Source: Roseobacter cerasinus (GTDB lineage: Bacteria > Pseudomonadota > Alphaproteobacteria > Rhodobacterales > Rhodobacteraceae). From it: a DNA stretch of 64,000 nucleotides. The position numbers were made by a program, and so were the translations under genes. Within the stretch, counting starts at the first letter, position 1; every line of letters begins with the position of its first letter. Positions 4,920 through 45,060 of this stretch are shown here, one piece after another. The notes under the pieces were generated by a model. The model worked only from the letters and a program-made list of their open reading frames with translations, was not told the DNA's origin and searched no databases. The DNA is taken from contig NZ_BLIV01000003.1 of the NCBI RefSeq assembly GCF_009811755.1, forward strand, positions 310,001 through 374,000, in the 5' to 3' direction.

Positions 4920-5831
4920 ATGGGCAAGGTGGTGATCCTCGGCGTGTTTGTGGCGGACACAGCCTACCGGGCGGACCGGATGCCCCGCATGGGGGAGACG
5001 ATCCTCGGCAACAGTTTCGCGCTGGGGCCGGGGGGCAAGGGCTCCAACCAGGCGGTGGCTTGTGCGCGCATCGGGGCCGACACGCATATGATCTCGAAAC
5101 TGGGGCGCGATGACTTTGGCAAGCTGGCACTCGATACTTGGGCGGCGGCTGGGGTCACGCCGCATGTGGATCAGGTGGCTGACAGCTACACCGGCGCGGC
5201 CTATATCTTCATTGAGGAAAGCTCCGGCGACAATGCGATCATTATCGCTCCCGGAGCAGCGGCGCTGATCGGCGCGGCAGACATTGAAGCACAGGCGGAG
5301 CTGATTGGCAGCGCGGATGTCTTTGTCACGCAGCTGGAGCAACCGATGCCCGCCGCCCTGCGCGCCCTGCAGATCGCGCGGGAGGCCGGGGTGAGGACGA
5401 TCCTCAACCCCGCACCGGCTGCGGACCTGCCGGACGGGATGTTGGCGCTTTGCGACTATGTCACACCGAACGAGACCGAGTGCGAGGCCCTGACCGGCAT
5501 TGCGGTCGAGACGGAAGAGGAGGCCGCCCGGGCCACTTCCGCGCTGCGGGATCTGGGTGTGCGGACACCGATCATCACCATGGGCGAGCAGGGCGCGTAT
5601 CTCGACGGGCACGGGTTGGTGCCTGCGGTCAAGGCCGGTGAAGTGGTTGAGACCACGGGCGCAGGCGATGCGTTCAACGGCGGCTTTGCGGCCGCTCTGG
5701 CCGAAGGCAAGTCGGATCTGGAGGCGGTCAGGCTTGGCTGTGCCACTGCCGGGATTTCGGTGACCCGACCGGGCACAGCACCTGCGATGCCAACGCGCAA
5801 AGAGGTAGACGCACTGCTGGCCCAGTCATAG
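4920..5831 (+). CDS. rbsK: Ribokinase (PfkB family)
   Basis: A 303-residue carbohydrate kinase that would phosphorylate ribose or a similar sugar with ATP. The N-terminal PGGKGSNQAVACARIG motif (PfkB signature 1) and the C-terminal ETTGAGDAFNGGF motif (signature 2, catalytic Asp and anion hole) are intact, and LEQP and NPAP match the ribokinase core. It closes the operon that begins at 2743. Its stop overlaps the 3' end of the convergent modC by six bases. The exact substrate is inferred only from the mutarotase next to it. Confidence 0.88.
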   Translation: MGKVVILGVFVADTAYRADRMPRMGETILGNSFALGPGGKGSNQAVACARIGADTHMISKLGRDDFGKLALDTWAAAGVTPHVDQVADSYTGAAYIFIEESSGDNAIIIAPGAAALIGAADIEAQAELIGSADVFVTQLEQPMPAALRALQIAREAGVRTILNPAPAADLPDGMLALCDYVTPNETECEALTGIAVETEEEAARATSALRDLGVRTPIITMGEQGAYLDGHGLVPAVKAGEVVETTGAGDAFNGGFAAALAEGKSDLEAVRLGCATAGISVTRPGTAPAMPTRKEVDALLAQS

Positions 5832-6926
5832 CTCAGGACGGGGCTGGTCTCCCACCGCATCCCGCGCGACCGAGACAGCCTTGATCACTGCGAAGACCCG
5901 CAGGCCCGGTTGCAGCGACAGCGCATCGGCGGAGCGCCGGGTGATCCGGGACAAAAGCAGTGTGTCGCCAAAGCACAACTGCACCAGAACACCGGGACCC
6001 GCGCCAAAGCGCAGCGCGCGCACGGTTGTCTCCAGCACGTTGAGCGCTGAGATGCCCTGGGGCCGCTCCGTGGCGAGCATGACGTCCTGTGCTTCGATCC
6101 AGACGCGCACCCTTGTGCCGGGCGCCTGATCGACGCGGGGTAGCAGCAGCGACGCGCCGCCCGCGTCCAGCTGGCTCAGGCCATCGTCGTGATGCGCCTG
6201 CACCCGCGCCTCCAGCATGGCGCCGGCGGCGCGCACGCCCAGCGGCGTGACCGCCGGATCGCTCAGCACGTCCGATGCCGCCCCCTGACGGATCACGCGG
6301 CCTGCGTCGAGGGCCACCACCGTTGTGGCCAGCCGCGCCACCTCGCTGGCGGCATGGCTGACATAAAGGATGGGCGTCGATACTTCATCCCGCAGCCGCT
6401 CGAAGTAAGGCAGGATCTCCGCCTTACGCGGTTCATCAAGCGCGGCGAGCGGCTCATCCGCCAGAATGATGCGCGGATTGGCCAGCAGGGCGCGGCCAAT
6501 AGCCGTGCGCTGCTTCTCACCGCCAGAAAGACCATCGGGTCGGCGCCCGAGCAGTGGCCCAATGCCGAGCATATCGACAATCCGGTTAAACTCCGGTCCG
6601 GGGGTGGATTTCGGTGCAAACCAGCGACCGTAGAGCAGGTTTTGCCGCACGGTCAGGTGCGGAAAGAGCCGCGCGTCCTGAAAGATGTATCCGACGCGTC
6701 GCTGGTGCGGGGGCACGTGGCGCCCGGTGGCGCTGTCATAGAGGGGTGCGCCGTCGCAGGTGATCTGCCCAGCGTCCGGGCGCAGCAACCCGGCCACCGC
6801 ATTCACGATGGTCGATTTGCCCGCGCCGGAGCGGCCAAAGAGCACCGTGAGGCCTTCAGGTGCCTCAAAGCTGGCATCGAGCGTGAAGGCGCCCAGCTGG
6901 TGTTGCAGTGTGACCGACAGGCTCAT
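5826..6926 (-). CDS. modC: Molybdate ABC transporter ATP-binding protein
   Basis: A 366-residue ATPase of the molybdate importer. It has Walker A (GRSGAGKST), the signature LSGGEKQRTAIGRAL, Walker B (IILADEPLAALD), the switch His (YVSHAASEV), and a C-terminal MOP domain from about residue 290 that binds oxyanion for regulation. The ATG overlaps the modB stop by four bases, so translation is probably coupled. Order on the minus strand is modA-modB-modC, the standard arrangement. The product supplies molybdenum for molybdopterin enzymes. Confidence 0.95.
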   Translation of the reverse strand: MSLSVTLQHQLGAFTLDASFEAPEGLTVLFGRSGAGKSTIVNAVAGLLRPDAGQITCDGAPLYDSATGRHVPPHQRRVGYIFQDARLFPHLTVRQNLLYGRWFAPKSTPGPEFNRIVDMLGIGPLLGRRPDGLSGGEKQRTAIGRALLANPRIILADEPLAALDEPRKAEILPYFERLRDEVSTPILYVSHAASEVARLATTVVALDAGRVIRQGAASDVLSDPAVTPLGVRAAGAMLEARVQAHHDDGLSQLDAGGASLLLPRVDQAPGTRVRVWIEAQDVMLATERPQGISALNVLETTVRALRFGAGPGVLVQLCFGDTLLLSRITRRSADALSLQPGLRVFAVIKAVSVARDAVGDQPRPEL

Positions 6927-7618
6927 GTTGCGCGCACCCGGTTCGCCGCCCGGCGGGCCAGCCACTCGGACAGCAAAAGCGCGCTCATGGCGATCACGAT
7001 GGAGACGATCACGAGCCGCCAAGCGGAGGCCTCGCCACCGGGCACCTGCAGGAAAGCGTAGATGGCGGAGGGCACCGTCTGGGTCTGGCCGGGGATGTTG
7101 GAGACGAAAGTGATCGTGGCGCCAAATTCCCCCATCGCCTTGGCGAAGGCCAGAATGGCGCCGGCGGTCAGCCCCGGAAGGATCAGGGGCAGGGTGACGG
7201 TGGCGAACACCCAGATGCGCGAGGCACCCAGGGTCGCGGCGGCTTGCTCCAACCGCTGGTCCACCGCCTCGATGGAGAGGCGGATGGCGCGCACCATTAG
7301 CGGAAAGGCCATGACCCCGGCGGCCAGCGCGGCACCGGTCCAGCGGAAGGCGAAGACGATGCCAAAGCTTTCCAACAGGCGGCCAAAGCCGGTTTGCGGG
7401 CCGAAGCTGGCCAGCAGAAGGTACCCCGTGACCACGGGAGGCAGGATCAGCGGCAGATGCACCAGACCGTTCAGCAGCTGCTTGCCCGGGAATTCCTTGC
7501 GCGCCAAAAGATAGGCCACCCAGAGCCCAAGGGGCAGGCTGACCAGCGTCGCCCAAATTGACACTTTCAGGGACAGCGCAACCGCGCGCCATTCCTCGGG
7601 GCCGAGCCAGTCTGTCAT
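6923..7618 (-). CDS. modB: Molybdate ABC transporter permease
   Basis: A 231-residue inner-membrane permease with five to six hydrophobic segments. The EAA loop reads EAAATLGASRIWVFATVTLPLI, shown here as EQAAATLGAS followed by a VTLPLI turn, and is the site where ModC docks. The stretch LPLILPPVVTGYLLL near the N-terminus is characteristic of ModB. It overlaps modA and modC by four bases at each end, forming one transcription unit. Confidence 0.95.
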   Translation of the reverse strand: MTDWLGPEEWRAVALSLKVSIWATLVSLPLGLWVAYLLARKEFPGKQLLNGLVHLPLILPPVVTGYLLLASFGPQTGFGRLLESFGIVFAFRWTGAALAAGVMAFPLMVRAIRLSIEAVDQRLEQAAATLGASRIWVFATVTLPLILPGLTAGAILAFAKAMGEFGATITFVSNIPGQTQTVPSAIYAFLQVPGGEASAWRLVIVSIVIAMSALLLSEWLARRAANRVRAT

Positions 7619-8388
7619 GGTGCGCCCGGGGGGGCAGTGAAGCCCATGTCGCGCAGCTGCGCGCGAGCCTCAGGGGAGCGCAGATGCGCGAAGAAGCGCT
7701 GCGCTGCGGGGGTGTCGCGACTGTCGACGCGTGCGGCGGGGTAGGTGATGGCGGGGTGGCTCTCGCTTGGAAAGGTGGTCACAAGCGATACGCGCGGCTC
7801 TGCCCGTGCATCGCTGTCATAGACCACACCGAAGGCCGTGGCGCCCGTCGCCACAAGCGCCAGGGCTGCGCGCACGTTGTCGGTTTGTACGACCTGCGGG
7901 GACAGACGCTCCCACAGGCCCAGATGCAACAGCGCGGCCTTGCCGTAAATGCCTGCGGGCACAGCCTCTACCAGCGCCATGGCGACCCGGGCCTCGCCAA
8001 GCGCCTTGTCCAGGGCTGCGTGCTCAGGTGCAACGGCTGGATGACTGCTGTCATGTGCGATCAGCACAAGCCGGTTTCCGGCCAGATCAAAGCGGCTTTC
8101 AGGCGCGATGGCGCCCCGCGCCTCCAGCCAGTCCATCCACTCCGTGCTGGCGGTCACGACGATATCCGCCGGGGCGCCCAGGGAAATCTGCCGGGCCAGA
8201 ACCGGGGTTCCGGCATAGGAGATCACCACCTCATCCCCGCTTGTCAGAGCGTAGCTATCTGCGATCTGGTCGAGCGCGGTCTTCAGGCTCGCGGCGGCAA
8301 AGACTGTGATCCGCTCCGCCATCGCGGGGCCGGACAGACTGAGGACAAGGGCTGTAGCCCAGCCCCAGAACCGGACGCTCTTACCCAT
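7615..8388 (-). CDS. modA: Molybdate-binding periplasmic protein
   Basis: A 257-residue solute-binding protein with a typical Sec signal peptide (hydrophobic core about residues 8-22, cleavage near GPAMA). The mature start ITVFAAASLKTALDQIA and the segments APADIVVTAS and GIYGKAAL are ModA hallmarks, with Ser and Thr residues positioned for oxyanion hydrogen bonding. It is the first gene of modABC, and its promoter should lie in 8389-8598 opposite the Tag-like gene. No ModE-type palindrome was recognised there. Confidence 0.93.
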   Translation of the reverse strand: MGKSVRFWGWATALVLSLSGPAMAERITVFAAASLKTALDQIADSYALTSGDEVVISYAGTPVLARQISLGAPADIVVTASTEWMDWLEARGAIAPESRFDLAGNRLVLIAHDSSHPAVAPEHAALDKALGEARVAMALVEAVPAGIYGKAALLHLGLWERLSPQVVQTDNVRAALALVATGATAFGVVYDSDARAEPRVSLVTTFPSESHPAITYPAARVDSRDTPAAQRFFAHLRSPEARAQLRDMGFTAPPGAP

Positions 8389-8598: not shown

Positions 8599-9267
8599 AT
8601 GCGCAGCCTCGACGAGATCCTTGCCATAAGTGTGGAGCGGAAGGGCTCCGAAGCGGCGATCCTTCAGGACATTGACCCCCCGAAATCAGCGGAGGCTTTG
8701 GCCGCCATACCGGATGACCGCTGGCTCTCTGCGATGAGCAAGGCGATCTTTTGTGCGGGGTTCAACTGGAAAGTGGTCGACAATATGTGGCCGGGTTTCG
8801 AGACGGCGTTCAAAGGCTTTGACCCTGCGGCTTGCGCGATGATGGATGACGCGTGGTTTGATCGTCTGGTCACCGACACGTCCATCGTGCGCCATGGCCC
8901 CAAGATCCGCGCCGTGCAGGAAAACGCGGTCTATGTGCAGGAACAATCCGCGGAACATGGTAGCTTTGGGGCCTTCATGGCCAGTTGGCCCGCCGAAGGC
9001 TTTGTCGATCTACTGGCGCATTTGAAATCCGAAGGCACGCGTCTGGGCGGGACCACGGGGCAGTATGTCTTGCGCGTCATGGGCGTTGATGGGTTCCTGC
9101 TGTCGCGTGATGTGGTGGCCCGTTTGATTGCCGAAGGCGTCATCGACAAACAGCCGACCTCCAAAAGCGCCATGCGCGCGGTGCAGGCCGCGTTTCTGGA
9201 GTGGCATCAGAGCTCGGGCCGGTCGCTGACAGAGATCAGCCGGATTCTCGCCACCAGCATCGGCTAG
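8599..9267 (+). CDS. DNA-3-methyladenine glycosylase I family protein (Tag-like)
   Basis: A 222-residue helix-hairpin-helix-type protein resembling the Tag branch of base-excision glycosylases, which remove alkylated adenine. Recognisable blocks are WLSAMSKAIFCAGFNWKVVDNMWPGF and FDRLVTDTSIVRHGPKIRAVQENA, shown here in part, matching Tag substrate-pocket helices. It is longer than classical Tag (about 187 residues) and I do not see the N-terminal Cys/His zinc-snap motif of E. coli Tag, so it belongs to a divergent subgroup. A GGAGGGGAG ribosome site precedes the ATG. Its 3' end overlaps arsJ by four bases. Confidence 0.75.
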   Translation: MRSLDEILAISVERKGSEAAILQDIDPPKSAEALAAIPDDRWLSAMSKAIFCAGFNWKVVDNMWPGFETAFKGFDPAACAMMDDAWFDRLVTDTSIVRHGPKIRAVQENAVYVQEQSAEHGSFGAFMASWPAEGFVDLLAHLKSEGTRLGGTTGQYVLRVMGVDGFLLSRDVVARLIAEGVIDKQPTSKSAMRAVQAAFLEWHQSSGRSLTEISRILATSIG

Positions 9268-10529
9268 CTGGCGCGCTCTTCCGTTTGAGCGGAGGTGGAC
9301 CGTAGCTTGGCCGCCCCGATGGTGCTGAGCGCAAGCAGAACAGCGGCTGTTCCCAGACAAAGCGGCAGGCCACCGAGTTGGTAGCTCGCCCCGGACAGGA
9401 CAGTCCCAAGCAGGCGGCCAGCTGCATTGGCCATATAGTAAAAGCCCACGTCCATCGTAACCCGATCACCTGTGCTGAACGCCAGGATGAGATAGGAATG
9501 CAGCGCCGAGTTCACCGCGAAAAGCCCGCCAAAGATCAACAGCCCGACAATCAGGGTGACGGTCAGCCATGTGGTGGGCGCAGGTGTGACAAAGCTGAGC
9601 AAGGCCAGGCCAGCGGGGACGGCGATCAGCGAAACGACCCACAGGCGGGCTTCGCGGATGATGTCGGCTTCGGGCCGGTCCTTGGCGCTGAGCAGCTTGG
9701 GCGCCGCCGCCTGTACCGCGCCGTAAAGGATGATCCACAGCGCCATGAAGCTGCCGATGGTGAAGAAGGCCGCGCGGTTGCCCTCGGGCGTGCCGTCCGA
9801 GAGCACGGCGTAGAAGTAGATCGGGATGCCGACGACAAACCAGACGTCGCGGGCGGCAAAGAGGAAGACGCGGGCAAAGCTCAGCCAGTTCACATTGGCG
9901 TTCTTGGAAAAGACCTCGCGAAACTTCGCATCCTTGCGGCCCGTGGGCAGCCCTGCAGGCATCTTCCAGACGATGAGCACGAGGGTCAGCGCGAGCACCG
10001 CCGCCATACCCAGCACTGCAGCTTTCAGCCCGACCCAACCCAAAAGCACCGCGCCCAGCAGGAAGCCCAGCCCCTTCACCGCGTTCTTGGACCCGGTCAG
10101 CAGGGCGACCCAGCGAAAAAGTCCGCCCTGTTCGGAGGGCGCGAGCAGTTTCACGGCGGACTTCGCGCTCATCTTAGAGAGGTCCTTGGCCACGCCCGAC
10201 GCACCCTGAACGGCCATCACAAAGATCACCGAGGTCGCGACAGTCCACGCGGGGTCGAGTTGCGCGAGGGCAATCAGCGCTCCGATCTGCAGCGCCAGCC
10301 CGGCATAGAGCGTCGAGGTCAGACCGAACCGCGCCGCGATCCAGCCCGCGCTGAGGTTGGTGACCACCCCTGCGATCTCATAAAGCACGAAGAGGTAGGC
10401 CAGTTGCACCGGCGAAAACCCCAGCGTGTGAAAGTGCAGCAGCACCAGCATGCGCAGGGCGCCATCGGTCAGCATGAAGGCCCAATAGGCCGCCGTCACC
10501 GCCACATAAGCCGCGCCCGCGCGTTGCAT
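9264..10529 (-). CDS. arsJ: Organoarsenical efflux MFS transporter ArsJ
   Basis: A 421-residue MFS-type membrane protein with about twelve hydrophobic segments. Together with the dedicated GAPDH encoded just upstream it matches the known ArsJ system: GAPDH uses arsenate instead of phosphate to make 1-arseno-3-phosphoglycerate, and ArsJ exports it, whereupon the product falls apart outside. Support comes from the conserved N-terminal SegmENT YWAFMLTDGALRMLVLLHFH, the SGVAKDLSKMSAKSAVK loop, and the gene order arsRC-gapdh-arsJ. The start at 10529 lies two bases after the GAPDH stop, so the two are translationally linked. It is the last gene of the operon. Confidence 0.92.
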   Translation of the reverse strand: MQRAGAAYVAVTAAYWAFMLTDGALRMLVLLHFHTLGFSPVQLAYLFVLYEIAGVVTNLSAGWIAARFGLTSTLYAGLALQIGALIALAQLDPAWTVATSVIFVMAVQGASGVAKDLSKMSAKSAVKLLAPSEQGGLFRWVALLTGSKNAVKGLGFLLGAVLLGWVGLKAAVLGMAAVLALTLVLIVWKMPAGLPTGRKDAKFREVFSKNANVNWLSFARVFLFAARDVWFVVGIPIYFYAVLSDGTPEGNRAAFFTIGSFMALWIILYGAVQAAAPKLLSAKDRPEADIIREARLWVVSLIAVPAGLALLSFVTPAPTTWLTVTLIVGLLIFGGLFAVNSALHSYLILAFSTGDRVTMDVGFYYMANAAGRLLGTVLSGASYQLGGLPLCLGTAAVLLALSTIGAAKLRSTSAQTEERAS

Positions 10530-10531
10530 GC

Positions 10532-11530
10532 TCAGAGGCTCCCGCCGACCATGAGAGCCACGTCCACCAGCCGGTTGGCATAGCCCCATTCGTTGTCATA
10601 CCAGACGTAGACCTTCAGCTGCGTGCCGTTCACCACCATGGTCGAGGGCGCATCGACAATGCCGGAGCGTGGGTCATTGGTGTAATCGGTGCTGACCAGC
10701 GGGCGGGTCTCATAGCCCAGAATGCCCTTCAGTTCGCCATCTGCGGCGGCTTTGAAGAGGGCGTTGACCTCCTCCACGGTGGTCTCGCGCTCCAGCTCGA
10801 AGACACAATCGGTCAGCGACGCGTTCAGCAGCGGCACGCGCACGGCGTGGCCGTTGAGACGCCCGGTGAGTTCGGGGTAGATCAGCGTGATGGCCGTGGC
10901 GCTGCCCGTGGTGGTGGGGATCAGCGAATTCAGGGCCGAGCGCGCGCGGCGCAGATCCTTGGCGGGGCGGTCCACAATCGTCTGAGTGTTGGTCACGTCG
11001 TGGATCGTGGTGATGGAGCCGTGTTTGATCCCGAGGTTTTCATGCACGACCTTCACGACTGGCGCGATGCAGTTGGTGGTGCAACTGGCCGCTGTCACGA
11101 TCTGGTGCTGCGCCGGGTCGTAGATCTCGTGGTTCACGCCATAGACAATGTTGGCGGTTGGGCCGTCCTTGACAGGTGCCGAGACAACAACCTTTTTTAT
11201 GCCCGCCGCGAAGTAGGGCGCAAGCGCAGCTTCACTCTTGAAGGCGCCCGTGCAGTCGATCACCACATCCACACCCTCCAGCGGCAGGGTGCTGGGATCG
11301 CGGGCCCCGTGTACGGGCAGCCGCACACCGTCGATGGTAATACTGTCTGCATCCGCACTGAAGGCGGCAGGCCAACGCCCGTGCACGGTGTCGAACTCCA
11401 GCAGATGCGCGTGCATCGCCGCATCGCCCACCGCGTCGTTGATCCAGGCGATCCTGGCGCCACGCTCCAGCAGCGGGCGCAGAGCGAGCTTTCCGATCCG
11501 GCCCAAACCGTTCAGGGCGTAGGTGGTCAT
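10532..11530 (-). CDS. ArsJ-associated glyceraldehyde-3-phosphate dehydrogenase
   Basis: A 332-residue NAD-dependent GAPDH. The Rossmann start is [12 protein letters not shown], the catalytic Cys lies in SCTTNC near residue 150, and the C-terminal [17 protein letters not shown] block is intact. In ars operons this paralogue makes 1-arseno-3-phosphoglycerate from arsenate and glyceraldehyde-3-phosphate for ArsJ to export. The start at 11530 overlaps the arsR-arsC stop by four bases. A housekeeping glycolytic role is less likely given the tight coupling to arsenate genes. Confidence 0.92.
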
Positions 11531-12363
11531 GCAGGTGTTCCTTCCAGGTGGTCTTGGCCGATGCTGTCCACGGCGGCTTGCAAAGAGATTGCGTCGAGTG
11601 TGTCGATGGGCAGCGCGGCAAAGGCTTTCAGCCGGTTCCGCAAGGCCCCATAGGTCTGCTGAAAGGCGAGCCGCCGCTCGGCCAGGCTGCCGTCTGCTTT
11701 TACAGGGTCCGGCAGACCCCAATGCGCGCTGATCGGCTGGCCGTCCCAGGCTGGGCAGTCCTCATTTGCGGCCTGATCGCAGACGGTAAAGACAAAATCC
11801 ATTTGGGGGCTTTCGGGCTGTTGAAACTCCGAAATATGCTTGGAGCGTAACAGCGATGTGTCGTGTCCCTTACCTTTCAGCATCTCGACCGCCAGCGGGT
11901 TCAGTTTGGAACCCGGGTTTGTCCCGGCGGAAAAGACCTTGAATCGCCCGCCTTCCAGATCGCGCAGGATGGCCTCAGCAAAGATCGAGCGGGCGGAATT
12001 GCCAGTACAGATGAAAAGGACGTTGTAGGTCGTGTCAGTCATCGGTTGTGCTCCTTTGGTCAGAGGGGGGCAAAGGTCGGGTCGGCTGCGGCAGCAGTCA
12101 ATGAAGAGAAAGTCGATGAGTTCCGCCGCAGCACCCGTATTTGCGCTGTAGCGCAGGGAGGTGCCCTGACGTTCTTGCCGGATCAGCCCCGCATCGGTCA
12201 GCGCCGAGAGGTAGACGGAGGTTGTGGAGGCCTTCAGCGTCAGAACGCTGGCAATCTCGCCTGCGCGCACCTTGTCCGGATAGCGCCGCATCAACAGCCG
12301 GAAGACGGCCAACCGATGCGGGTGGCTGAGGGTGGACAGGCGCAGAATCGAATCTTTTTCCAT
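11527..12363 (-). CDS. ArsR-type repressor fused to thioredoxin-type arsenate reductase
   Basis: A 278-residue two-domain protein. Residues 1-105 form a winged-helix ArsR/SmtB domain whose C-terminal end carries a vicinal cysteine pair ([10 protein letters not shown]), a plausible As(III) sensor. Residues 109-278 form an LMW-phosphatase-like ArsC: CX5R loop ICTGNSARS, second redox Cys in [14 protein letters not shown], and the DP general-acid segment. It would both sense arsenite and reduce arsenate. An internal ATG at the ArsC boundary (12042 on this strand) is preceded by AAAGGAG at 12057-12051, eight bases upstream, so free ArsC might also be made. It heads the operon with gapdh and arsJ. 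Confidence 0.93.
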
Positions 12364-26758: not shown

Positions 26759-26844
26759 AAAGCATGTCTTAACGTTACCAATTGTCAAGGGCGCGGTCGG
26801 CTTGGCCCGGAACGCTCCGAAACAAGACGACTGGGAGGACAACG

Positions 26845-27831
26845 ATGACTTTCAAGACATTTGGCAAGACATTTGGCGCGGCCTGCGCGCTGAGCCTTGG
26901 TTTGGCCGGGTTGGCGCTGGCTGAATACCCCGAACGGCCCATCAATATGGTGATCCCCTATGGCGCGGGTGGCGCCACGGACATCTCGGCCCGCACGATT
27001 GCCGAACCGTTGGGGGCGGCGGTGGGCAAGCCGCTGGTCATGGCGAATGTCACAGGCGCCGGAGGGGCGACCGGGTCGGTTGCGGTGCAGAACGCCAAGG
27101 AAGACGGCTATACGATGCTCTTTGCGCGCGTCGGCTCGCATTCCGTGAACCCGGCGATGAAGGCGACGCTGCCCTATACGCTGGAAGATTTCCGCTTTGT
27201 CACGGTCTACGAGATCAACCCGGTGGCCTGCGCAGTCAGCTCGTCCTCGGGCATCACCTCGATGGAGGAACTGATCGCCAAGGTGGACCAGGGCGGCGTG
27301 ACGTATTCCTCCTCGGGCGTCGGATCGCTGCTGCATCTGGCTGCTGTCATGGTGTTGTCGGAGTTCGGGGTCGAGGAACCGCTGACCCAGACGACGCATA
27401 TTCCGCAGAAGGGCGGTGGCGCCGCAGCCACAGCGGTGCTGAACGGCACCGCGACGTTTCTCTGCACCAACTCCTCCTCTATCGCGAGCTTTGTGGCCAA
27501 CAAGCAGCTCGTGCCGCTGATGGTCACCACGGCAGAGCCGGTCCCAGGGTTCGACGTGCCGACAGCAGCGGATCTGGGCAAGCCCGCGCTGCACCAGCTG
27601 GTCGGCTGGACCGGGATTGCGGGCCCGGACGGGTTGCCGGACGAGGTGGCTGACAAATGGGGCACCTGGATGGCCAGCGCCACAGAGGATGCCGATTTCC
27701 TGGAAAAGATGACCGCGCGCGGCTCTGTCATCGAATTGATGTCTCCTGAAGACGCGAACGCTTTCATTCAGGGCCAATACGACACCTTCCGGAAACTTGT
27801 TGACGATCTGGGCATGCGGATTGAAGGCTAG
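26845..27831 (+). CDS. tctC: TTT transporter solute-binding protein (TctC/Bug family)
   Basis: A 328-residue periplasmic receptor of the tripartite tricarboxylate transporter family. The signal peptide ends near GLALAEYP. The mature region opens with YPERPINMVIPYGAGGATDISART, the Bug-family ligand loop, and later has SSGVGSLLHLAA. A GGGAGG lies eight bases before the ATG. Known ligands include citrate, tricarballylate and other carboxylates. It is the first gene of tctCBA and is separated from tctB by a hairpin. Confidence 0.92.
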   Translation: MTFKTFGKTFGAACALSLGLAGLALAEYPERPINMVIPYGAGGATDISARTIAEPLGAAVGKPLVMANVTGAGGATGSVAVQNAKEDGYTMLFARVGSHSVNPAMKATLPYTLEDFRFVTVYEINPVACAVSSSSGITSMEELIAKVDQGGVTYSSSGVGSLLHLAAVMVLSEFGVEEPLTQTTHIPQKGGGAAATAVLNGTATFLCTNSSSIASFVANKQLVPLMVTTAEPVPGFDVPTAADLGKPALHQLVGWTGIAGPDGLPDEVADKWGTWMASATEDADFLEKMTARGSVIELMSPEDANAFIQGQYDTFRKLVDDLGMRIEG

Positions 27832-27856
27832 GCGGACCGCCCGTCGATAGAGACAC

Positions 27857-27883
27857 GCGCCGGGCGTTCAGATCGCCCGGCGC
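27857..27883 (+). promoter_or_regulatory. Perfect hairpin between tctC and tctB
   Basis: Ten-base arms GCGCCGGGCG and CGCCCGGCGC surround a seven-base loop in the tctC-tctB gap. Only three T follow closely. Like the TRAP hairpin at 15804, it probably stabilises or partly terminates the binding-protein message. Confidence 0.7.
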
Positions 27884-27915
27884 TTTGCGTCAGGCGTGAC
27901 CGGGGAAGGGGGCCG

Positions 27916-28407
27916 ATGACACAGCGACAGGTGCAAATGCGGCTGGGGGTGGGCGCGGTGCTGGCCGCGCTCTTTCTGGCGGTTTATGCCATTCCGGCCT
28001 GGGTGTCCTCGCCCAGCAATGTGGGCAACATCATCCTGTCGCCGCTGTTTTGGCCCTACGCCCTGGCGGGGTTCACCGGGCTGACGGGCTTTGGGCTGAT
28101 CTATTCGGGCCTGCGGCTGGACCAGAGTGGCGCGCCGCTGGAAGAGCCGAGCGACGAGGCCGGTGCCGCCTGGGTGCGGCTGGCCCTGATGGCGGTGATC
28201 ATGGTGCTGACCATGCTTTTGCTGCCGGGTCTGGGCATGGTGCTGACCTCAATGCTGATATTCGCGGCCACCGCCTTTCTGGTGCGCACGCGTCATCCGA
28301 TGACCGCGCTGGTCTGCGCCGTCCTGGTGCCGCTGGTGCTTTACGCCTTCTTTGCCCATGTGGCGGGCGTTGCGATCCCGCAGGGTGAGGTTTTGAGGCT
28401 GCCATGA
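27916..28407 (+). CDS. tctB: TTT transporter small membrane subunit
   Basis: A 163-residue membrane protein with four hydrophobic helices (about 12-32, 45-65, 90-110, 118-145), the size and topology of TctB. It is poorly conserved in sequence, so the call rests on place: it lies between tctC and tctA and overlaps tctA by four bases (ATGA). Confidence 0.88.
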   Translation: MTQRQVQMRLGVGAVLAALFLAVYAIPAWVSSPSNVGNIILSPLFWPYALAGFTGLTGFGLIYSGLRLDQSGAPLEEPSDEAGAAWVRLALMAVIMVLTMLLLPGLGMVLTSMLIFAATAFLVRTRHPMTALVCAVLVPLVLYAFFAHVAGVAIPQGEVLRLP

Positions 28408-29918
28408 GCTTTGTCGACAGCCTCGCCGCTGGCCTCAGCCTGGTCGGCAATATCGAAGCCTTTCTGGCGCTGTTTCTCGGTGTGGCCATTGGCGTGATTG
28501 GTGGGGCGATCCCCGGCATGTCGGCCACCATGGCCGTCGCACTGACCCTGCCTTTCACCTTTGCGATGCAGCCGATCACGGGCATCCTTTTGCTGCTGGG
28601 CGTCTACAAAGGCGGCATCTTCGGCGGGTCGATTCCGGCGATCCTGATCAAGACGCCGGGCACCCCTGCGTCCTCCGCCACCATCCTCGATGGCTACCCG
28701 ATGGCTGAGAAGGGTGAGGCGGGGCGCGCGCTTGGCATGGCGCTCTGGGCGTCCTGCACGGCGGATGTGATCTCGAACCTCTCGCTGATCCTCTTTGCCG
28801 GGTGGCTTGCGTCTTTCGCGCTCAGCTTCGGCCCGCCGGAGTTCTTCACGCTGATCCTGTTTTCGCTGACCATCATCGCCGGTGTCTCAGGCGAGAGCCT
28901 GCTGCGCGGCGCGCTTTCGGCGTTGCTGGGCCTGCTGCTGGCAACCATCGGGCTGGATCTGGTCTATGGCACCAACCGCTTCACCTTTGGTGACCCGAAT
29001 ATGATGGGGGGCTTGAACTTCATCGCGGTGCTGATCGGGCTCTTCGCCATCCCCGAAATCCTCGCCATGGTCCGGCACCCGACCGCGCATGTGGGCAAGG
29101 CGCGCTCTTTGGGTAAGAACTGGGTCACCTTCGGGGAGTACCGCCGCAGTTTCAAATCCATTGTGCGGGGCAGCTTTATCGGGGTTTTCCTCGGCTCCAT
29201 CCCCGGCATTGGCGCAGCCCCATCGGCCTTCCTCAGCTATTCCGAAGCGCGCCGGACCTCAAAGAACCGCGAGAATTTCGGCAAGGGTGAGATCGAAGGC
29301 GTCGCGGCCTCAGAGGCCGGCAACAACGGGGTGGCCGGTGCGACGCTGATCCCGCTTCTGGCCCTTGGCGTGCCGGGAGACGTGATCACCGCCATCATCA
29401 TCGGTGCCTTCATGATCCACGGGCTGCAACCCGGCCCGATGATGTTCATCCTCAACGTCGACATCATCTATGGGCTGTTCATCGGGCTGATCGTCAGCTC
29501 GGTCTTTCTGTTCCTCATCGGGTCCATCGCCATTCGCGGCTTCAAATACGTGGCGGATGTGCCCAAGCGCATCCTGATCCCCGCCGTGCTGGTGCTCTGC
29601 ATCTACGGGGTCTTTGCGGTGAACAACAATATCTTCGACGTGGGCGTGATGTTCGTGATGGGCTGGATCGGCTTTGCCATGATGCGCTACCGGGTGCCTG
29701 CCGCGCCCTTCCTCATTGCCTTCATCCTTGGGCCGCTGCTGGAAGATAATTTCCGCCAGTCCATGCTGATGTCCGGCAGCGATCCGGCCATCCTCGTGCG
29801 TGGGCCGATCACATGGTTCTTCTGGGCAATGACCCTGCTGACAATCATCGCCATTGCGCGCGCGGGCATCCGCGCGGTGAAAGCGGGCCCGCTGTTGGGC
29901 CAGCCGCCGCAGGGGTGA
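28404..29918 (+). CDS. tctA: TTT transporter large permease subunit
   Basis: A 504-residue protein with about twelve membrane helices. Family blocks include GAIPGMSATMAVALTLPFTF, YKGGIFGGSIPAILIKTPGTPAS (split here by the Gly-rich turn), LGSIPGIGAAPSAFLSYSEARR and LALGVPGDVITAIIIGAFMIHG. It forms the transport channel with TctB and works with the TctC receptor. It is the last gene of the importer operon; the membrane redox cluster begins 130 bases on. Confidence 0.92.
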   Translation: MSFVDSLAAGLSLVGNIEAFLALFLGVAIGVIGGAIPGMSATMAVALTLPFTFAMQPITGILLLLGVYKGGIFGGSIPAILIKTPGTPASSATILDGYPMAEKGEAGRALGMALWASCTADVISNLSLILFAGWLASFALSFGPPEFFTLILFSLTIIAGVSGESLLRGALSALLGLLLATIGLDLVYGTNRFTFGDPNMMGGLNFIAVLIGLFAIPEILAMVRHPTAHVGKARSLGKNWVTFGEYRRSFKSIVRGSFIGVFLGSIPGIGAAPSAFLSYSEARRTSKNRENFGKGEIEGVAASEAGNNGVAGATLIPLLALGVPGDVITAIIIGAFMIHGLQPGPMMFILNVDIIYGLFIGLIVSSVFLFLIGSIAIRGFKYVADVPKRILIPAVLVLCIYGVFAVNNNIFDVGVMFVMGWIGFAMMRYRVPAAPFLIAFILGPLLEDNFRQSMLMSGSDPAILVRGPITWFFWAMTLLTIIAIARAGIRAVKAGPLLGQPPQG

Positions 29919-30048: not shown

Positions 30049-30426
30049 ATGACCCAAGCCGAAGCCATCCTCATGGGGTTGCGCATCTGGGGGAGCATCG
30101 GCGCTGTGGTTGCGGCGATCTTCCTGACCATCGGCATGGACCGCATCGATGAGGATGCGCGTGAGGCCTACATCTTTCGGCCACTTCTGATCCCGGGCGT
30201 TCTTGTGATCTGGCCGCTCGTGCTGTGGCGTTGGTATCTCTTCGAGAGCGGGCGCGAACGCTGGCCCGGCCGCTATGACCCGCCGCGCCGGGCGCATTTT
30301 GTGGTGGGCTGGTTGCTGCCCATTGGCATCTGCGCAATCATCGTCATTGGCCTTAGCCAGCGGCAAACCTGGCCCACCGACATCGCACCGCTGCAGCTCT
30401 CCGGCCAAGTGGAGGCTGCCCAATGA
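30049..30426 (+). CDS. Small membrane protein, first gene of the redox cluster
   Basis: I do not recognise this 125-residue protein. It has three hydrophobic stretches (about 10-28, 46-62 and 85-105), with a charged loop IDEDAREAYIF after the first helix and an RPPRRAHF-type basic loop before the third. The ATG at 30049 is preferred over an in-frame upstream start because it is followed by a hydrophobic helix at the expected place. The last four bases overlap the ferric-reductase/Rieske gene, so the two are co-translated. A structural or assembly subunit of a membrane redox complex is likely. Confidence 0.75.
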   Translation: MTQAEAILMGLRIWGSIGAVVAAIFLTIGMDRIDEDAREAYIFRPLLIPGVLVIWPLVLWRWYLFESGRERWPGRYDPPRRAHFVVGWLLPIGICAIIVIGLSQRQTWPTDIAPLQLSGQVEAAQ

Positions 30427-31481
30427 GTGTGAAGTACATCCCCGTCCAGTGGAATACGAATAAATACATCTACGATGCGGTAATGCTGCTGGGCGTGGGT
30501 CTGTTCCTTTATGTGTTCCTCTATGTCGCCCCCGGCATTCTGAGCCACGAGCGACCGATCAACCCGCAAATCCACAACGCGCGCGCCTTTGGCGCCTGCG
30601 CCTTTGTGATGTTGACGGTGATCTTGTGCATCGGCCCGCTGGCGCGGCTCGACCCGCGGGTTTTGCCGCTGCTTTACAACCGGCGGCACTTTGGCGTGAT
30701 GACGGCCTTTGTGGCGACCACCCATGCGGGCTATATCGTGGATTGGTACTTCGCCTTTTCCGCATCGAACAAATACGAGGCGCTGCTCTTTGCCAACACG
30801 AGCTACGGGCAACTGGCGGGCTTTCCCTTTGAGGTCTTTGGCCTCTTTGCGCTCGTCACGCTGATCCTGCTGGCGGCGACAAGCCATGACTTCTGGATGA
30901 AGTTCCTCAGCCCGCCGGTGTGGAAGCGCATCCATTATCTGATCTATCCCGCCTATCTGTCTGTCGTGGCGCATGTGTCCTTCGGCATTCTGCAGGACCA
31001 GCAAAACCACGCGGTCACGGTGATCTTCATCGGAGGGGCGGCGGCAGTGGGCCTCCTGCATTTGCTTGCCGCCCTGCAGGAGCGCAGCACGGATGCCAAG
31101 CTGTTGGCAGCGGCTGCCGACTGGGTGCCCGTCTGCGACATCGCCGAGATGAAGGACGGTTTTGCCAAGATCAAGCTTCTGGCGAGTGGTGAACGTGTTG
31201 CGGTCTATCTCAACGCCGGCAAGCTCAGCGCGATCTCGAATGCCTGCGCGCATCAGAACGGGCCGCTGGGGGAGGGGCGTATCATCGACTGCCTGGTGAC
31301 CTGCCCTTGGCATGGTTTCCAATACGATGTGACCAATGGGCGTTCACCCGCACCCTTCACCGAGAAGGTCCCGACCTACAATCTGAAACTGGAGGGCACC
31401 GCCGTGCTGGTTGACCCGCGGGCCAATGTGCCGGGGACCTATGTGGAGCCGGTGCCCGTCCCGCAAGGAGCCACCGGATGA
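30423..31481 (+). CDS. Ferric-reductase-like membrane domain fused to a Rieske [2Fe-2S] domain
   Basis: A 352-residue fusion. Residues 15-220 form about six membrane helices of the ferric-reductase/YedZ type, with His101, His171 and His184 placed as possible haem b ligands. Residues 235-335 form a Rieske ferredoxin domain with Cys275-x-His277 and Cys294-x2-His297, the exact cluster motif. Electrons could pass between the [2Fe-2S] centre and membrane haem. No NAD or FAD domain follows, unlike NADPH oxidases, so partner proteins must supply the electron donor or acceptor. It overlaps both neighbours by four bases. Biological role unknown. Confidence 0.85.
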   Translation: MSVKYIPVQWNTNKYIYDAVMLLGVGLFLYVFLYVAPGILSHERPINPQIHNARAFGACAFVMLTVILCIGPLARLDPRVLPLLYNRRHFGVMTAFVATTHAGYIVDWYFAFSASNKYEALLFANTSYGQLAGFPFEVFGLFALVTLILLAATSHDFWMKFLSPPVWKRIHYLIYPAYLSVVAHVSFGILQDQQNHAVTVIFIGGAAAVGLLHLLAALQERSTDAKLLAAAADWVPVCDIAEMKDGFAKIKLLASGERVAVYLNAGKLSAISNACAHQNGPLGEGRIIDCLVTCPWHGFQYDVTNGRSPAPFTEKVPTYNLKLEGTAVLVDPRANVPGTYVEPVPVPQGATG

Positions 31482-32236
31482 GCGACAAGGACAGTTTCTT
31501 CGTTGGCTACCTGCCCGCGCCCAAGGCGCTGCGGGGGCTGTTGCTGGCGGTTTGTGTGCTCTTTGTCTCGGGCCTTGCGGGCTTCGGACTGGCGCTTGGT
31601 GTGGCACAGGACGATCCGGGCGAGGGGGCCTTTCGCTTCGACTATGGGCGCCAGACCGTGACCGGGGTGGTGGAGCTGACACCCTATCCGCTGTTGCGCG
31701 TAACCGAAGGGAATGAGCGGATCCCGGCGGGGCATACGTTGATGCTGGCCGGGGGCGGCAAGACCAATGTGGAGGATCGGGCGATCCCGCTTGAGGGGCA
31801 GCTGGCGCAGGCGTCGGGTGTGATGCTGGAGCGCGGAACGCTGGACATGTTGCAACTGCGCGGCGGGCGCAATGGCCTTCAGGCGGTCGAGGGTGCTGTG
31901 CCGGAGATGGGGACCGTGCCGCTGGGCCGCTGGAAACTGGCGGGCGAGATTTGCGACGGCAAATGCCTCGCAGGCGCCATGCGCCCTGGGCGCGGGCTGG
32001 CGCATAAGGCCTGCGCCAATCTCTGTCTGCTGGGTAAGGTGCCACCCGTCTTTGTCTCCTCCCAGCCGGTGGACGGGTCGGAGTTCCTGCTGATCACCGG
32101 CCCCAATGGGGAGCATCTGCCCGAGAAGGCCTATCACTACGTGGCGCAATTCATCTCACTGGAAGGTGAGGTGGAGCGGCGGGGTGATCTGCTGGTGTTG
32201 CGCTTGGATCCGGACACGCTGGAGGTGCTGCGGTGA
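31478..32236 (+). CDS. Membrane-anchored protein with Cys/His motif, function unknown
   Basis: A 252-residue protein with one N-terminal membrane helix (about 18-44) and a large, probably periplasmic, domain. Its key feature is a compact motif at Cys159-x3-Cys163, His176, Cys179-x3-Cys183, set in ICDGKCLAGAM and HKACANLC with Pro-Gly residues between. This pattern looks made to bind a metal or haem-like cofactor or to do thiol chemistry. It is co-translated with the Rieske fusion. I recognise no named family. Confidence 0.8.
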   Translation: MSDKDSFFVGYLPAPKALRGLLLAVCVLFVSGLAGFGLALGVAQDDPGEGAFRFDYGRQTVTGVVELTPYPLLRVTEGNERIPAGHTLMLAGGGKTNVEDRAIPLEGQLAQASGVMLERGTLDMLQLRGGRNGLQAVEGAVPEMGTVPLGRWKLAGEICDGKCLAGAMRPGRGLAHKACANLCLLGKVPPVFVSSQPVDGSEFLLITGPNGEHLPEKAYHYVAQFISLEGEVERRGDLLVLRLDPDTLEVLR

Positions 32237-32502
32237 TGCGCCGCGTGCCAATGCTGTTGCTGGTCGCGGGGATTGCGGCTGTCTTCTTCTATTTCTCGCG
32301 GTTTTGGTATCTCTCGCTTTGGGACAGGCCCGGACTATTTGGATGGGACGCGCTGCGCCCGCAGGGCGGTCTGGTCGGCCAATGGCTGCGTGGCACTGAT
32401 GCCGCACCCTTTGAGCTTCTGGTCTGGGCGTTAGGATGTTTTGCGGTGCTGAGCCTTGCTCAGAAAGTCGTCGATCTGCTGAGCAAACCTTCCGACAAGT
32501 GA
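32236..32502 (+). CDS. Small two-helix membrane protein, last gene of the redox cluster
   Basis: An 88-residue protein with hydrophobic segments at about 5-25 and 60-80. The ATG overlaps the previous stop as TGATG; a GTG three bases upstream is the other option. The middle holds an aromatic run (FSRFWYLSLWD). No family is recognised. Four co-translated genes of this kind suggest a stable membrane complex. Confidence 0.7.
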   Translation: MRRVPMLLLVAGIAAVFFYFSRFWYLSLWDRPGLFGWDALRPQGGLVGQWLRGTDAAPFELLVWALGCFAVLSLAQKVVDLLSKPSDK

Positions 32503-32627: not shown

Positions 32628-33332
32628 ATGAACGACATATATGACGGGCTGCTGTCCGCGTTCTGGCTGGTGGTGACGCTTGACGCTGACCTTCTGGAGA
32701 TTTCGCTGCGCTCGCTGCAAGTCAGCCTGACAGCGCTGGTGATCGCCTCAGCCATTGCGCTGCCCTTGGGCACGTTACTCGCGATCCGCCGGTTTCGGTA
32801 TCGGCGGTTGACGATATCGTTGCTGAATGCGCTGATGGGGCTGCCGCCGGTGGTCGTCGGCCTCCTCGTCTATATCCTGCTGTCGCGTTCGGGGCCGCTT
32901 GGCGTGCTGGGGCTGCTCTTTACCCCCACGGCCATGATCATTGCACAGGTCATCATTATCACGCCACTCATCGCCTCGATCACCCATCAGGCCATGCGCG
33001 AGCTGTGGGCCGAATACCACGATCTGTTGATTTCCCTGAACACCAGCGGCTGGCAGCGCATCCGCACGCTGATCTGGGACGGGCGACGCAACCTGCTGAC
33101 CGCCTCGCTGGCCGGCTTTGGCCGGGCTATTGGCGAGGTCGGTGCGATTATGATCGTGGGCGGCAACATCGACAATGCAACCCGCGTGCTGACCACGGCG
33201 ATTGCGTTGGAGACAGGCAAAGGCGACTTTGCTCTCGCTCTGGCCTTGGGCTTTGTACTGATCGCGCTCGCCATCGGGATCAATGTGGCCATTCACTGGC
33301 TCTCGCGCACAGAACGGGAGGGGCGGTGGTGA
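32628..33332 (+). CDS. tupB: Tungstate ABC transporter permease
   Basis: A 234-residue permease with five to six helices. SGWQRIRTLIWDGRRNLLTA is the cytoplasmic loop that contacts the ATPase, and GFGRAIGEVGAIMIVGGNI is a strong TupB/WtpB-type block. It is first in tupBCA, an order in which the binding protein comes last. A 125-base gap without an obvious terminator separates it from the redox cluster. Confidence 0.88.
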   Translation: MNDIYDGLLSAFWLVVTLDADLLEISLRSLQVSLTALVIASAIALPLGTLLAIRRFRYRRLTISLLNALMGLPPVVVGLLVYILLSRSGPLGVLGLLFTPTAMIIAQVIIITPLIASITHQAMRELWAEYHDLLISLNTSGWQRIRTLIWDGRRNLLTASLAGFGRAIGEVGAIMIVGGNIDNATRVLTTAIALETGKGDFALALALGFVLIALAIGINVAIHWLSRTEREGRW

Positions 33333-34042
33333 GCAGCATCCTGCCTTTGACCCTGACGGATGTCGCCGTGCGCAGACGCGGCAAAACGCTGCTTGGGCCG
33401 GTTGATCTCAGCCTGGAGGCCACGGGCCTGACGATCATCATCGGCCCCAACGGCAGCGGCAAGACCACGCTGCTGCGTGCCATGCATGGGGTGGAACGGC
33501 TGAGCACGGGCGCCGTGCGCTGGTCGGTTCCAGATGAGCAGGCGCAGCACCGGCAGGCCTATGTGTTCCAGACCCCGATCATGCTGCGCCGCTCCGTGGC
33601 GGACAATCTGCGCTACCCCTTGCAGCTTTTGCGCCTGCCGCGCGCCGAGATTGGCGCGCGTGTGGCCGACTGGCTGGCCCGGATTGGGCTGGAGGAGCGT
33701 GCGAGCCTGCAGGCCACGCGCCTGTCTGGCGGTGAAAAACAGCGGCTGGCGATCGCCCGGGCGCTGATCCGCAGGCCGGATGTGCTGTTTCTCGATGAAC
33801 CCTGCGCCAATCTCGATGGCGCCTCGACCCGGGCCATTGAGGCGCTGTTACAGGCCGCCCTTGATGAAAAAACCCGCATTATCATGACCACACATGATCT
33901 GGGTCAAGCCAGACGATTGGCCAGCGATGCTATCTTCATGCTGCACGGCGTGGTGCATGAAGCAGGCTCTGCCGCGCGTTTCTTCGGCGCGCCATGCACG
34001 GAGGAGCTAGAGGCATTTTTCAGAGGAGATATCATCGCATGA
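33329..34042 (+). CDS. tupC: Tungstate ABC transporter ATP-binding protein
   Basis: A 237-residue ATPase: Walker A GPNGSGKTT, signature RLSGGEKQRLAIARAL, Walker B VLFLDEPCANLD and switch His MTTHDLGQARRLA. The likely start is GTG at 33329, overlapping the tupB stop; a second GTG is three bases upstream. It has no C-terminal MOP domain, unlike modC in this window, which fits the tungstate branch. Confidence 0.88.
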   Translation: MSSILPLTLTDVAVRRRGKTLLGPVDLSLEATGLTIIIGPNGSGKTTLLRAMHGVERLSTGAVRWSVPDEQAQHRQAYVFQTPIMLRRSVADNLRYPLQLLRLPRAEIGARVADWLARIGLEERASLQATRLSGGEKQRLAIARALIRRPDVLFLDEPCANLDGASTRAIEALLQAALDEKTRIIMTTHDLGQARRLASDAIFMLHGVVHEAGSAARFFGAPCTEELEAFFRGDIIA

Positions 34043-34845
34043 TCCACCGCATTCTCGCCTTGGCGACGGCAGTGACGCTTGGAACCGCAGTTTTGGCCGA
34101 AGAGATGAAACTGGCCGTCACCACGTCATTTGAAAACTCAGGTCTGGCAGATGTGTTGCTGCCCGCGATCAAGGAGGATCTGGGGCTTGATGTGCAACTG
34201 CTGGTCGTTGGAACCGGGCAGGCACTGCGGCTGGGGCAGGCGGGGGATGTGGATGCCATCCTCGTGCACTCCCGCACGGCAGAAGAGGCCTTTGTGGCTG
34301 AGGGCTATGGCACCCATCGCCGCGAGATCATGTACAACGACTTTGTCTTCATCGGGCCAGCGGGGGATCCGGCGGGGATCGCTGTGGCGGGCTCTGCCGC
34401 CGAGGCGCTGCAGCGGATCAGTGCGGCGGAGCCCGCCTTCGTCAGCCGTGGTGATGAAAGCGGCACGCATAAGAAAGAGCGCGCGCTGTGGGCGGAGGCC
34501 GGGCTGTCACCTGAGACGTTTGGCGCGTGGTACCGAGAAGTGGGGGCAGGCATGGGCGCCAGCCTCAACACCGCCGCTGGGCTTGACGCCTATATCCTCG
34601 CGGATCGCGCGAGCTGGCTGAACTTCGGCAATCCGGCGGGGTTGGCTTTGCTCTATTCAGGAGCCCCCGCGCTTTTCAACCAATACGCCTTTCTCGCGGT
34701 GAACCCCGAACGGCACAGCCACGTGCGTCATGATCTGGCCGTGCAGTTGGAAGGCTGGCTCACCAGCCGACGCGCAGCGGATCTCATCAACGGCTACACG
34801 ATCAATGGCGAGACGCTGTTTATCTTTAACGCTGGTCCCGAGTAA
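34039..34845 (+). CDS. tupA: Tungstate-binding periplasmic protein
   Basis: A 268-residue receptor with a signal peptide ending near TAVLAEE. The TTSFENSGLADVLLPAIKE start, VDAILVHSR, YNDFVFIGPAGDP and FVSRGDESGTHKKE blocks match TupA, with Thr/Ser/Arg residues for the oxyanion. TupA-type proteins are highly selective for tungstate over molybdate. Together with modABC at 5.8-8.4 kb this gives the cell separate routes for both metals. Confidence 0.9.
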   Translation: MIHRILALATAVTLGTAVLAEEMKLAVTTSFENSGLADVLLPAIKEDLGLDVQLLVVGTGQALRLGQAGDVDAILVHSRTAEEAFVAEGYGTHRREIMYNDFVFIGPAGDPAGIAVAGSAAEALQRISAAEPAFVSRGDESGTHKKERALWAEAGLSPETFGAWYREVGAGMGASLNTAAGLDAYILADRASWLNFGNPAGLALLYSGAPALFNQYAFLAVNPERHSHVRHDLAVQLEGWLTSRRAADLINGYTINGETLFIFNAGPE

Positions 34846-44023: not shown

Positions 44024-44965
44024 CTAATGTGACGGTCGCGGCTGCCACGTTCTGTCGGCCTTCACCAAGGCGTTCGCCAGGATCATCAACTTACGCTTGA
44101 CGGCTGTGATGGCGACTTTGGCAGGCTTTCCTGCGGCTATGAGCCTTTCCTAGACGACACGCATATCCGGATTGAAGCGTGTAGCGACCAGCGCGGGCAT
44201 GTACATCGACTGTCGCAGAATGGCGCGCCCGCCCTGGATGAACGACTTGCCTTTCCATTTGCCGCTTTCCCGGCTCATCGGCGCAAGACCTGCCAGGCTG
44301 GCGGTCTGCGGCGAGGAAAGCGTCCCGAGTTCTGGCATTTCAACCATCAGCGTGAAGGCGGTCACATCCGAGATGCCGGGAATACTGGTCAGGATCCTCG
44401 CGCGACGGTGCAGGTGTTCGTCAGCGCGAATGACCTCGGCGATCTCCGCATCCAGCTGCTTCACTTGGCGTTCGATCTGCCGCAGGCGCGCGGCGCACTG
44501 CCGCTTGAGCAAAGGATGGTTCAGCACCTTCTGGCGGTTCAGTGTCGCCGTACGTTCTTTCATCAGCCCGCGTCGTGACATCGCCAGTTCTCGCAAAAGA
44601 ATAATGGTCTCAGATTGAGGTTGCTGAGGTTGCAAATCCAGAGCGACGCCCATCCGAGCCAGTAGCGCTGCATCCACTCGATCCGTTTTTGCAAGAACAC
44701 CAATCGCCTGAGCAAAACGGCGGGCATAGAGCGGATTGACACCGTGGATCGCAAACCCCGCCGCGTGCATCGCCTGGGCAAAGGCGCGATGGTAGGAGCC
44801 GGTGGGCTCGAAAACTATGATGGCCGGATCAAGCTCGCGAAACCGACGCGCGATTTTCCGAAATCCGTGCCCCGAGTTCTTGACCGTCATCGCTTCGCCA
44901 CTTGGCAGCACGTGGATGTCTAGATGGTCCTTTGAAATGTCCACCCCAATGGTATGCTTCGTCAT
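44024..44965 (-). pseudogene. IS110-family transposase with internal amber stop
   Basis: A DEDD-type transposase/recombinase of about 313 codons. Its N-terminal RuvC-like part has GVDISKDHLD, VFEPTGSYHR and KTDRVDAALLARMG, and its C-terminal Tnp_20 part has ILTSIPGISDVTAF and LAGLAPMSRESGKWKG. At 44150-44152 a TAG interrupts the frame where family members have an aromatic residue (here between VV and ERLIAAGKPAKVAITAV). The remaining 41 codons to 44024 are intact and in frame. A single nonsense change therefore truncated an otherwise full-length gene. The element's exact ends could not be fixed, since IS110 elements lack inverted repeats. Confidence 0.88.
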
Positions 44966-45060
44966 CTTTTCCTGCCCTATGCTTGTCATTCGGGGCAAAT
45001 ATCGGCCCCCTTGTATCCGTTCAGGCCTCTTGGAAAAGACGGGGACGATCACACTCTAGG

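Follow-up and report, generated by a model that had tools for sequence, protein, structure and literature searches.

A four-gene operon of Roseobacter cerasinus and its relatives as a candidate Rieske-fed electron conduit

The window considered here is a stretch of 64,000 nucleotides from the 4.47 Mb genome of Roseobacter cerasinus (contig NZ_BLIV01000003.1, positions 310,001 to 374,000). It contains an operon of four plus strand open reading frames (ORFs), g1 to g4, that spans 30049-32502. We argue with moderate confidence that this operon is an inner-membrane electron conduit, in which g2, a Rieske-plugged protein of the ferric reductase domain (FRD) superfamily, passes electrons outward to g3. 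This is the simplest reading since a Rieske domain replaces the flavin/NAD module and since there is an always-present outside partner with a conserved site. The four genes are:

30049..30426, + strand: g1, 125-residue membrane protein with about three hydrophobic segments, ATG start (ORF and hydropathy)
30423..31481, + strand: g2, 352 residues, ferric-reductase-type membrane domain and C-terminal Rieske [2Fe-2S] domain, ATG start
31478..32236, + strand: g3, 252 residues, membrane-anchored, two OB-like domains with a D/C/M/H/C/C site, ATG start
32233..32502, + strand: g4, 89 residues, membrane protein, two hydrophobic segments, GTG start (ORF and hydropathy)

A first-pass annotation of this DNA had the four genes overlapping or abutting, and every junction is indeed a 4-bp overlap (ATGA, ATGA and GTGA in order). 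It also took the first and fourth genes to encode small membrane proteins, and both are hydrophobic by hydropathy. No family could be assigned to g1, whose top Pfam match is Ni_hydr_CYTB at 14.9 bits, under the cut-off of 30.1. No Pfam or NCBIfam family was found for g4. We presume that g1 and g4 are membrane subunits or assembly factors.

The haem and Rieske protein

g2 is a six-helix FRD-superfamily domain joined to a dioxygenase-type Rieske ferredoxin domain. The membrane part matches Ferric_reduct (PF01794, E 3.4e-11, 43.7 bits against a cut-off of 28) and the C-terminal part matches Rieske (PF00355, E 4.9e-15). Only PF01794 and Rieske-type domains matched g2 in Pfam at E <= 1, and no NAD or FAD domain was matched in any of the four proteins. 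This agrees with the architecture first described from the letters alone: a membrane domain of haem type, a Rieske centre fused to it, and no NAD or FAD module. The fold matches are STEAP1, STEAP2 and NOX5, and the Rieske domain occupies the place that the FAD/NAD(P)H module has in NOX and ferric reductases.

FRD proteins ligate haem through two pairs of histidines, one pair on helix 3 and the other on helix 5, with a spacing of about 12-14 residues. The presumed haem ligands of g2 are H89/H101 and H171/H184, which are kept in 95/95 sequences (duplicates included). Helix 3 runs from 87 to 109 and helix 5 from 174 to 191, so H171 lies three residues ahead of its helix. The presumed Rieske ligands are invariant across the same 95 sequences. 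Their C-x-H ... C-x2-H arrangement and the ferredoxin fold are those of a soluble-type Rieske ferredoxin.

g2 was compared with several known proteins. It is not the Rieske subunit of cytochrome bc1, as TIGR01416 gives 12.3 bits against a cut-off of 97.4. A full-length ferric reductase or NADPH oxidase has C-terminal FAD and NAD(P)H domains, and g2 has neither at E <= 1. The MsrQ equivalog NF003831 gives 34.8 bits where 130 is the cut-off. The only other match to the g2 profile in the R. cerasinus genome is a Rieske domain adjoining nitrite- and nitrate-reductase-like genes, which from these neighbours we take to be probably NirD.

The partner protein g3

At E <= 1 neither Pfam nor NCBIfam gives a family for g3, the SCO1/SenC domain PF02630 being among those not matched, and no strong match to it was found in the PDB. 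The family has at least 1939 homologues (E <= 0.001), whose entries, if they carry a name at all, read "hypothetical" or "uncharacterized protein". The structure model (pLDDT 92) shows a single N-terminal membrane helix (16-43) followed by two OB-like domains. The second of these has a helical insert (161-185) that carries a predicted Cys/His/Met site with the pattern D-x2-C...M...H-x2-C-x3-C, most likely on the periplasmic side. D160, C163, M168, H176, C179 and C183 are invariant in 67/67 homologues. The first-pass annotation had picked out a C-x3-C, His, C-x3-C motif (C159, C163, H176, C179, C183). The motif is present and four of its residues are among the invariant ones, but C159 is not, being Cys in 60/67. 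The invariant D160 and M168 lie in the same stretch, beyond that motif.

The second domain also occurs by itself. A search with the g3 profile across 149 Rhodobacteraceae genomes (one per genus) found a protein or ORF matching this domain only in at least 19, R. cerasinus included; the count is a lower bound, with up to 18 candidates scored per genome. When 12 of these short proteins are aligned with 10 g3 sequences, the invariant columns, in g3 numbering, are G156, D160, C163, G173, H176, C179, C183, G186 and P189. It must be noted that the pattern used to select the short proteins already required Asp, Cys, His, Cys, Cys and the Gly that follows, so what is independent is the fit of the short proteins to g3, together with two further Gly and the Pro. 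M168 varies in this joint alignment. One cluster with a short homologue is:

G000:C6:2363-3923 (L160 2363-3923), - strand: short homologue of the second domain of g3, with another Cys-rich small protein and SCO1/SenC (Pfam)

At this locus, which is that of R. cerasinus, the short gene sits two genes from SCO1/SenC, with another uncharacterised small protein in between. Similar clusters were recognised by eye at L161, L162, L163, L164, L167 and L168. The proximity to SCO1/SenC is the sole functional hint for g3, and it hints at copper or thiol chemistry.

Conservation of the operon

The synteny set consists of 80 loci (the best of 565 confirmed), 20 further loci and the window, which leaves 96 once five duplicates are dropped. 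Because the 80 are those closest to the query, with several sister species among them, the set under-represents distant relatives. In all loci that have sequence at this place (92/92) the gene immediately upstream of g3 is g2, and g1 precedes g2 in 90/92 (the exceptions are L047 and L091). g4 was detected after g3 in 67/95 loci. It is possibly undercounted, as L041 has a divergent two-segment ORF at the g4 position. g1, g2 and g3 are thus inherited as one unit. The first-pass annotation had proposed a search for co-occurrence, and the independence of these genes is contradicted by it. One can imagine that g1-g4 are unrelated neighbours that overlap by chance, and the 28/95 loci where g4 was undetected could be cited for this. 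We consider it hardly credible. The loci were retrieved via g3 alone, and yet g2 is beside it every time; the almost constant position of g1 and the three 4-bp overlaps contradict it too.

The operon is common to marine Roseobacter-group bacteria and their relatives. g3 is present in 14/289 genomes from the class of R. cerasinus. The full-length protein was found in 7/398 genomes drawn from the phylum, all 7 of that class, and in 15 of the 149 Rhodobacteraceae genomes (E < 1e-60). A plasmid of Rhizobium leguminosarum WSM1689 (NZ_CP007050.1, 33668-36118) also carries g2 and g3 homologues. Its annotation names g2 only as a Rieske 2Fe-2S domain-containing protein and calls both g3 and the small genes around the pair hypothetical.

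Rieske-fused enzymes beside the module

The relatives provide context that is invisible from a single window, namely adjacent soluble enzymes that themselves bear Rieske domains. One is a protein of about 536 residues with a Rieske domain and a Glu_synthase (flavin mononucleotide, FMN) domain. It has a conserved C451-x5-C457-x4-C462 pattern that we take to be a 3Fe-4S site. The other, of about 659 residues, joins a Rieske domain to a thiamine diphosphate (ThDP) enzyme. The top PDB match of the latter is PoxB, pyruvate dehydrogenase [cytochrome] (3e-63), followed by acetolactate synthase (6e-59), and the N-terminal Rieske domain is outside the PoxB-matching part. All listed NCBIfam models are under their cut-offs, the top one being pyruvate oxidase (372 bits vs 742). 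With PoxB and acetolactate synthase so close and no model at its cut-off, these matches do not single out a substrate.

One or both enzymes are beside the module in 48 of the 85 loci with both flanks (26 both, 14 Rieske-FMN only, 8 Rieske-ThDP only, 37 neither). The genes usually run in the order Rieske-FMN enzyme, g1, g2, g3, g4, Rieske-ThDP enzyme. Of the 149 Rhodobacteraceae genomes, 14 have the Rieske-FMN enzyme (truncated in one) and 8 the Rieske-ThDP enzyme; the FMN-enzyme counts exclude 13 matches without the Rieske part. g3 co-occurs with the ThDP enzyme in 7 of these genomes and with the FMN enzyme in 9, and the two enzymes occur together in 8. The FMN enzyme occurs without g3 in 5 genomes and the ThDP enzyme without g3 in 1; in 6 genomes g3 is present and the FMN enzyme is not.

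The genus itself was covered by a set of 19 genomes, R. cerasinus included. Full g2 is present in 17, with no full match found in G291. Both enzymes lie beside g2 in 5 of the 17, the ThDP enzyme alone in 4 and the FMN enzyme alone in 3; the remaining 5, which include the window, have neither. G297 has only the FMN enzyme at the module, and a Rieske match in a 693-residue open frame elsewhere in its genome. G306 carries the enzyme pair (L176) without the module.

Genome searches found neither enzyme in R. cerasinus. We rejected the idea that they are encoded elsewhere in this genome, as only Rieske-less relatives of the cores and separate Rieske domains matched. Remnants in the gaps of the window were rejected too, as tblastn gave only chance-level matches (E >= 0.8); the sole significant match in the wider region is the Rieske domain of g2 itself. 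An obligate complex of the module with both enzymes is rejected as congeners keep either half alone. The genus-set mixtures, the G306 pair without a module and the window module without enzymes mean that module and enzyme pair are associated yet separable.

Other genes adjoin the module in some relatives. In two of them, at L042 (5146-10240) and L045 (6975-12058), the Rieske-fused enzymes are replaced by a SPASM-domain (radical-SAM-like) gene before the module and by DUF2147 and alanine dehydrogenase genes after it. In four distant relatives (L038, L040, L131, L140) there is what we take to be a malic-enzyme-like gene 3' of g3.

Proposed mechanism and its rivals

In the conduit that we propose, the Rieske domain of g2 would be cytoplasmic and would accept electrons from soluble donors. 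These would cross the membrane through two b haems of g2 and reach g3 at its Cys/His/Met site, on the periplasmic side. That site may be a copper-like metal centre, or else a dithiol with redox activity. Transmembrane electron transfer had been suggested in the first-pass annotation, and the STEAP/NOX fold fits it; the metal, thiol or periplasmic acceptor suggested with it is still conjectural. To judge from genomic association and the shared domain type, the flanking Rieske-fused enzymes, PoxB-like (ThDP) and glutamate-synthase-like (FMN), probably act as donors in many relatives. R. cerasinus has neither, so another donor must serve there.

We tentatively extend this to a modular form of export. 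Rieske domains might be interchangeable plugs that link unrelated cytoplasmic dehydrogenases, the PoxB-like ThDP enzyme and the glutamate-synthase-like FMN/3Fe-4S enzyme, to the g2 haem channel and thence to g3 as a new type of periplasmic partner, a redox or metal protein with a Cys/His/Met site. If the conduit is as proposed, it would be a NOX/STEAP-type channel powered by iron-sulfur ferredoxin domains in place of NADPH and FAD, and central-carbon or nitrogen enzymes would be coupled directly to periplasmic chemistry. A large uncharacterised family, g3, gains a testable reading, and the two Rieske-fused enzymes emerge as candidate donors amenable to purification.

It is worth considering another destination for the electrons. 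g2 could be a respiratory entry point and reduce membrane ubiquinone with electrons from Rieske-linked dehydrogenases of 2-oxoacid or amino-acid oxidation, with g3, g1 and g4 as assembly or stability factors. PoxB itself reduces ubiquinone, and it heads the PDB matches of the ThDP partner just as pyruvate oxidase, below its cut-off, heads the NCBIfam models. The malic-enzyme-like genes (if rightly named) and the two alanine dehydrogenase genes put pyruvate-related functions near some modules, and passages of PMC8238504 give MsrQ, a relative, as quinone-binding. However, this does not explain why g2 constantly has beside it a gene for a periplasmic-side Cys/His/Met protein, and the module persists without an adjacent ThDP enzyme. 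We consider the respiratory scenario less probable than the outward conduit. The conduit could also serve maturation, reducing cysteines or copper/iron for another periplasmic or membrane metalloenzyme as SCO1 or CcdA do. The C-terminal domain that g3 shares with the small protein encoded near SCO1/SenC argues for this, as does the H-x2-C-x3-C spacing, which is reminiscent of SCO1 and CuA sites. Against it, no oxidase or periplasmic metalloenzyme was recognised by eye among the families in at least 5/91 clustered loci, where no family search was made. We regard a maturation device as unlikely.

Surroundings in the window

The operon lies between two transporters, of putative type:

26782-29918, upstream of g1-g4: TctCBA-type transporter (TctB domain by Pfam)
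32628-34845, directly after g4: tungstate-type ATP-binding cassette (ABC) transporter (BPD_transp_1 and PBP_like_2 domains, Pfam)

The latter is one of two oxyanion-type ABC transporters in the window, the other (5826-8388) being presumably molybdate-like. The region 9264-12363 resembles what we take to be an arsenate-resistance cluster, with a major facilitator superfamily transporter, a gene for a GAPDH-like protein and what looks like a fusion of an ArsR-type regulator with an arsenate-reductase-like phosphatase. An ORF at 44150-45052 on the minus strand resembles an IS110-type transposase.

Comparison with known systems

PoxB, a pyruvate:quinone oxidoreductase, is the closest solved relative of the core of the neighbouring ThDP enzyme. 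It differs in that the N-terminal Rieske domain of that enzyme is outside the match, and the ThDP gene is absent from the R. cerasinus genome. Among the matches listed in searches of open-access papers there was nothing on the g1-g4 module, g3 or either Rieske-fused enzyme; subscription papers are outside this coverage. The first-pass claim that the architecture resembles no standard electron-transfer complex has to be corrected: the membrane part of g2 clearly belongs to the FRD superfamily, for which a Rieske partner had been listed by 2013 (PMC3591440, figure legend).

g2 shares with the FRD superfamily (NOX, FRE, STEAP, YedZ/MsrQ) the six-helix domain and, on helices 3 and 5, four histidines presumed to ligate haem; it differs in having a Rieske ferredoxin domain in the place of the FAD/NAD(P)H module. 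MsrPQ also pairs a haem conduit with a periplasmic partner, and g2 is a weak MsrQ match (E 1.2e-8). However, MsrP was not seen among the neighbouring ORFs as read, and the module has its own partner in g3. The ApbE-flavinylated MsrQ-like systems in the passages of PMC8238504 are similar in having a PF01794 protein with an extracytosolic partner, but have a NAD domain where g2 has Rieske. No FMN-binding domain was matched in g1-g4 (Pfam, E <= 1), and apbE was not searched for.

The FRD superfamily and a Rieske-containing architecture, M4, are already in print. For M4, the legend of Figure 3 in Zhang et al. 2013 (PMC3591440) names Rieske among the electron-transfer partners of the FRD, and FMN as well; M4 is a possible counterpart of g2. 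g1, g3, g4 and the Rieske-fused enzymes are not among what the abstract, passages and section 10 of that paper describe. In the characterised members of the superfamily, according to passages of PMC3591440 and PMC8238504, electrons travel from the cytoplasm to an extracellular metal or oxygen.
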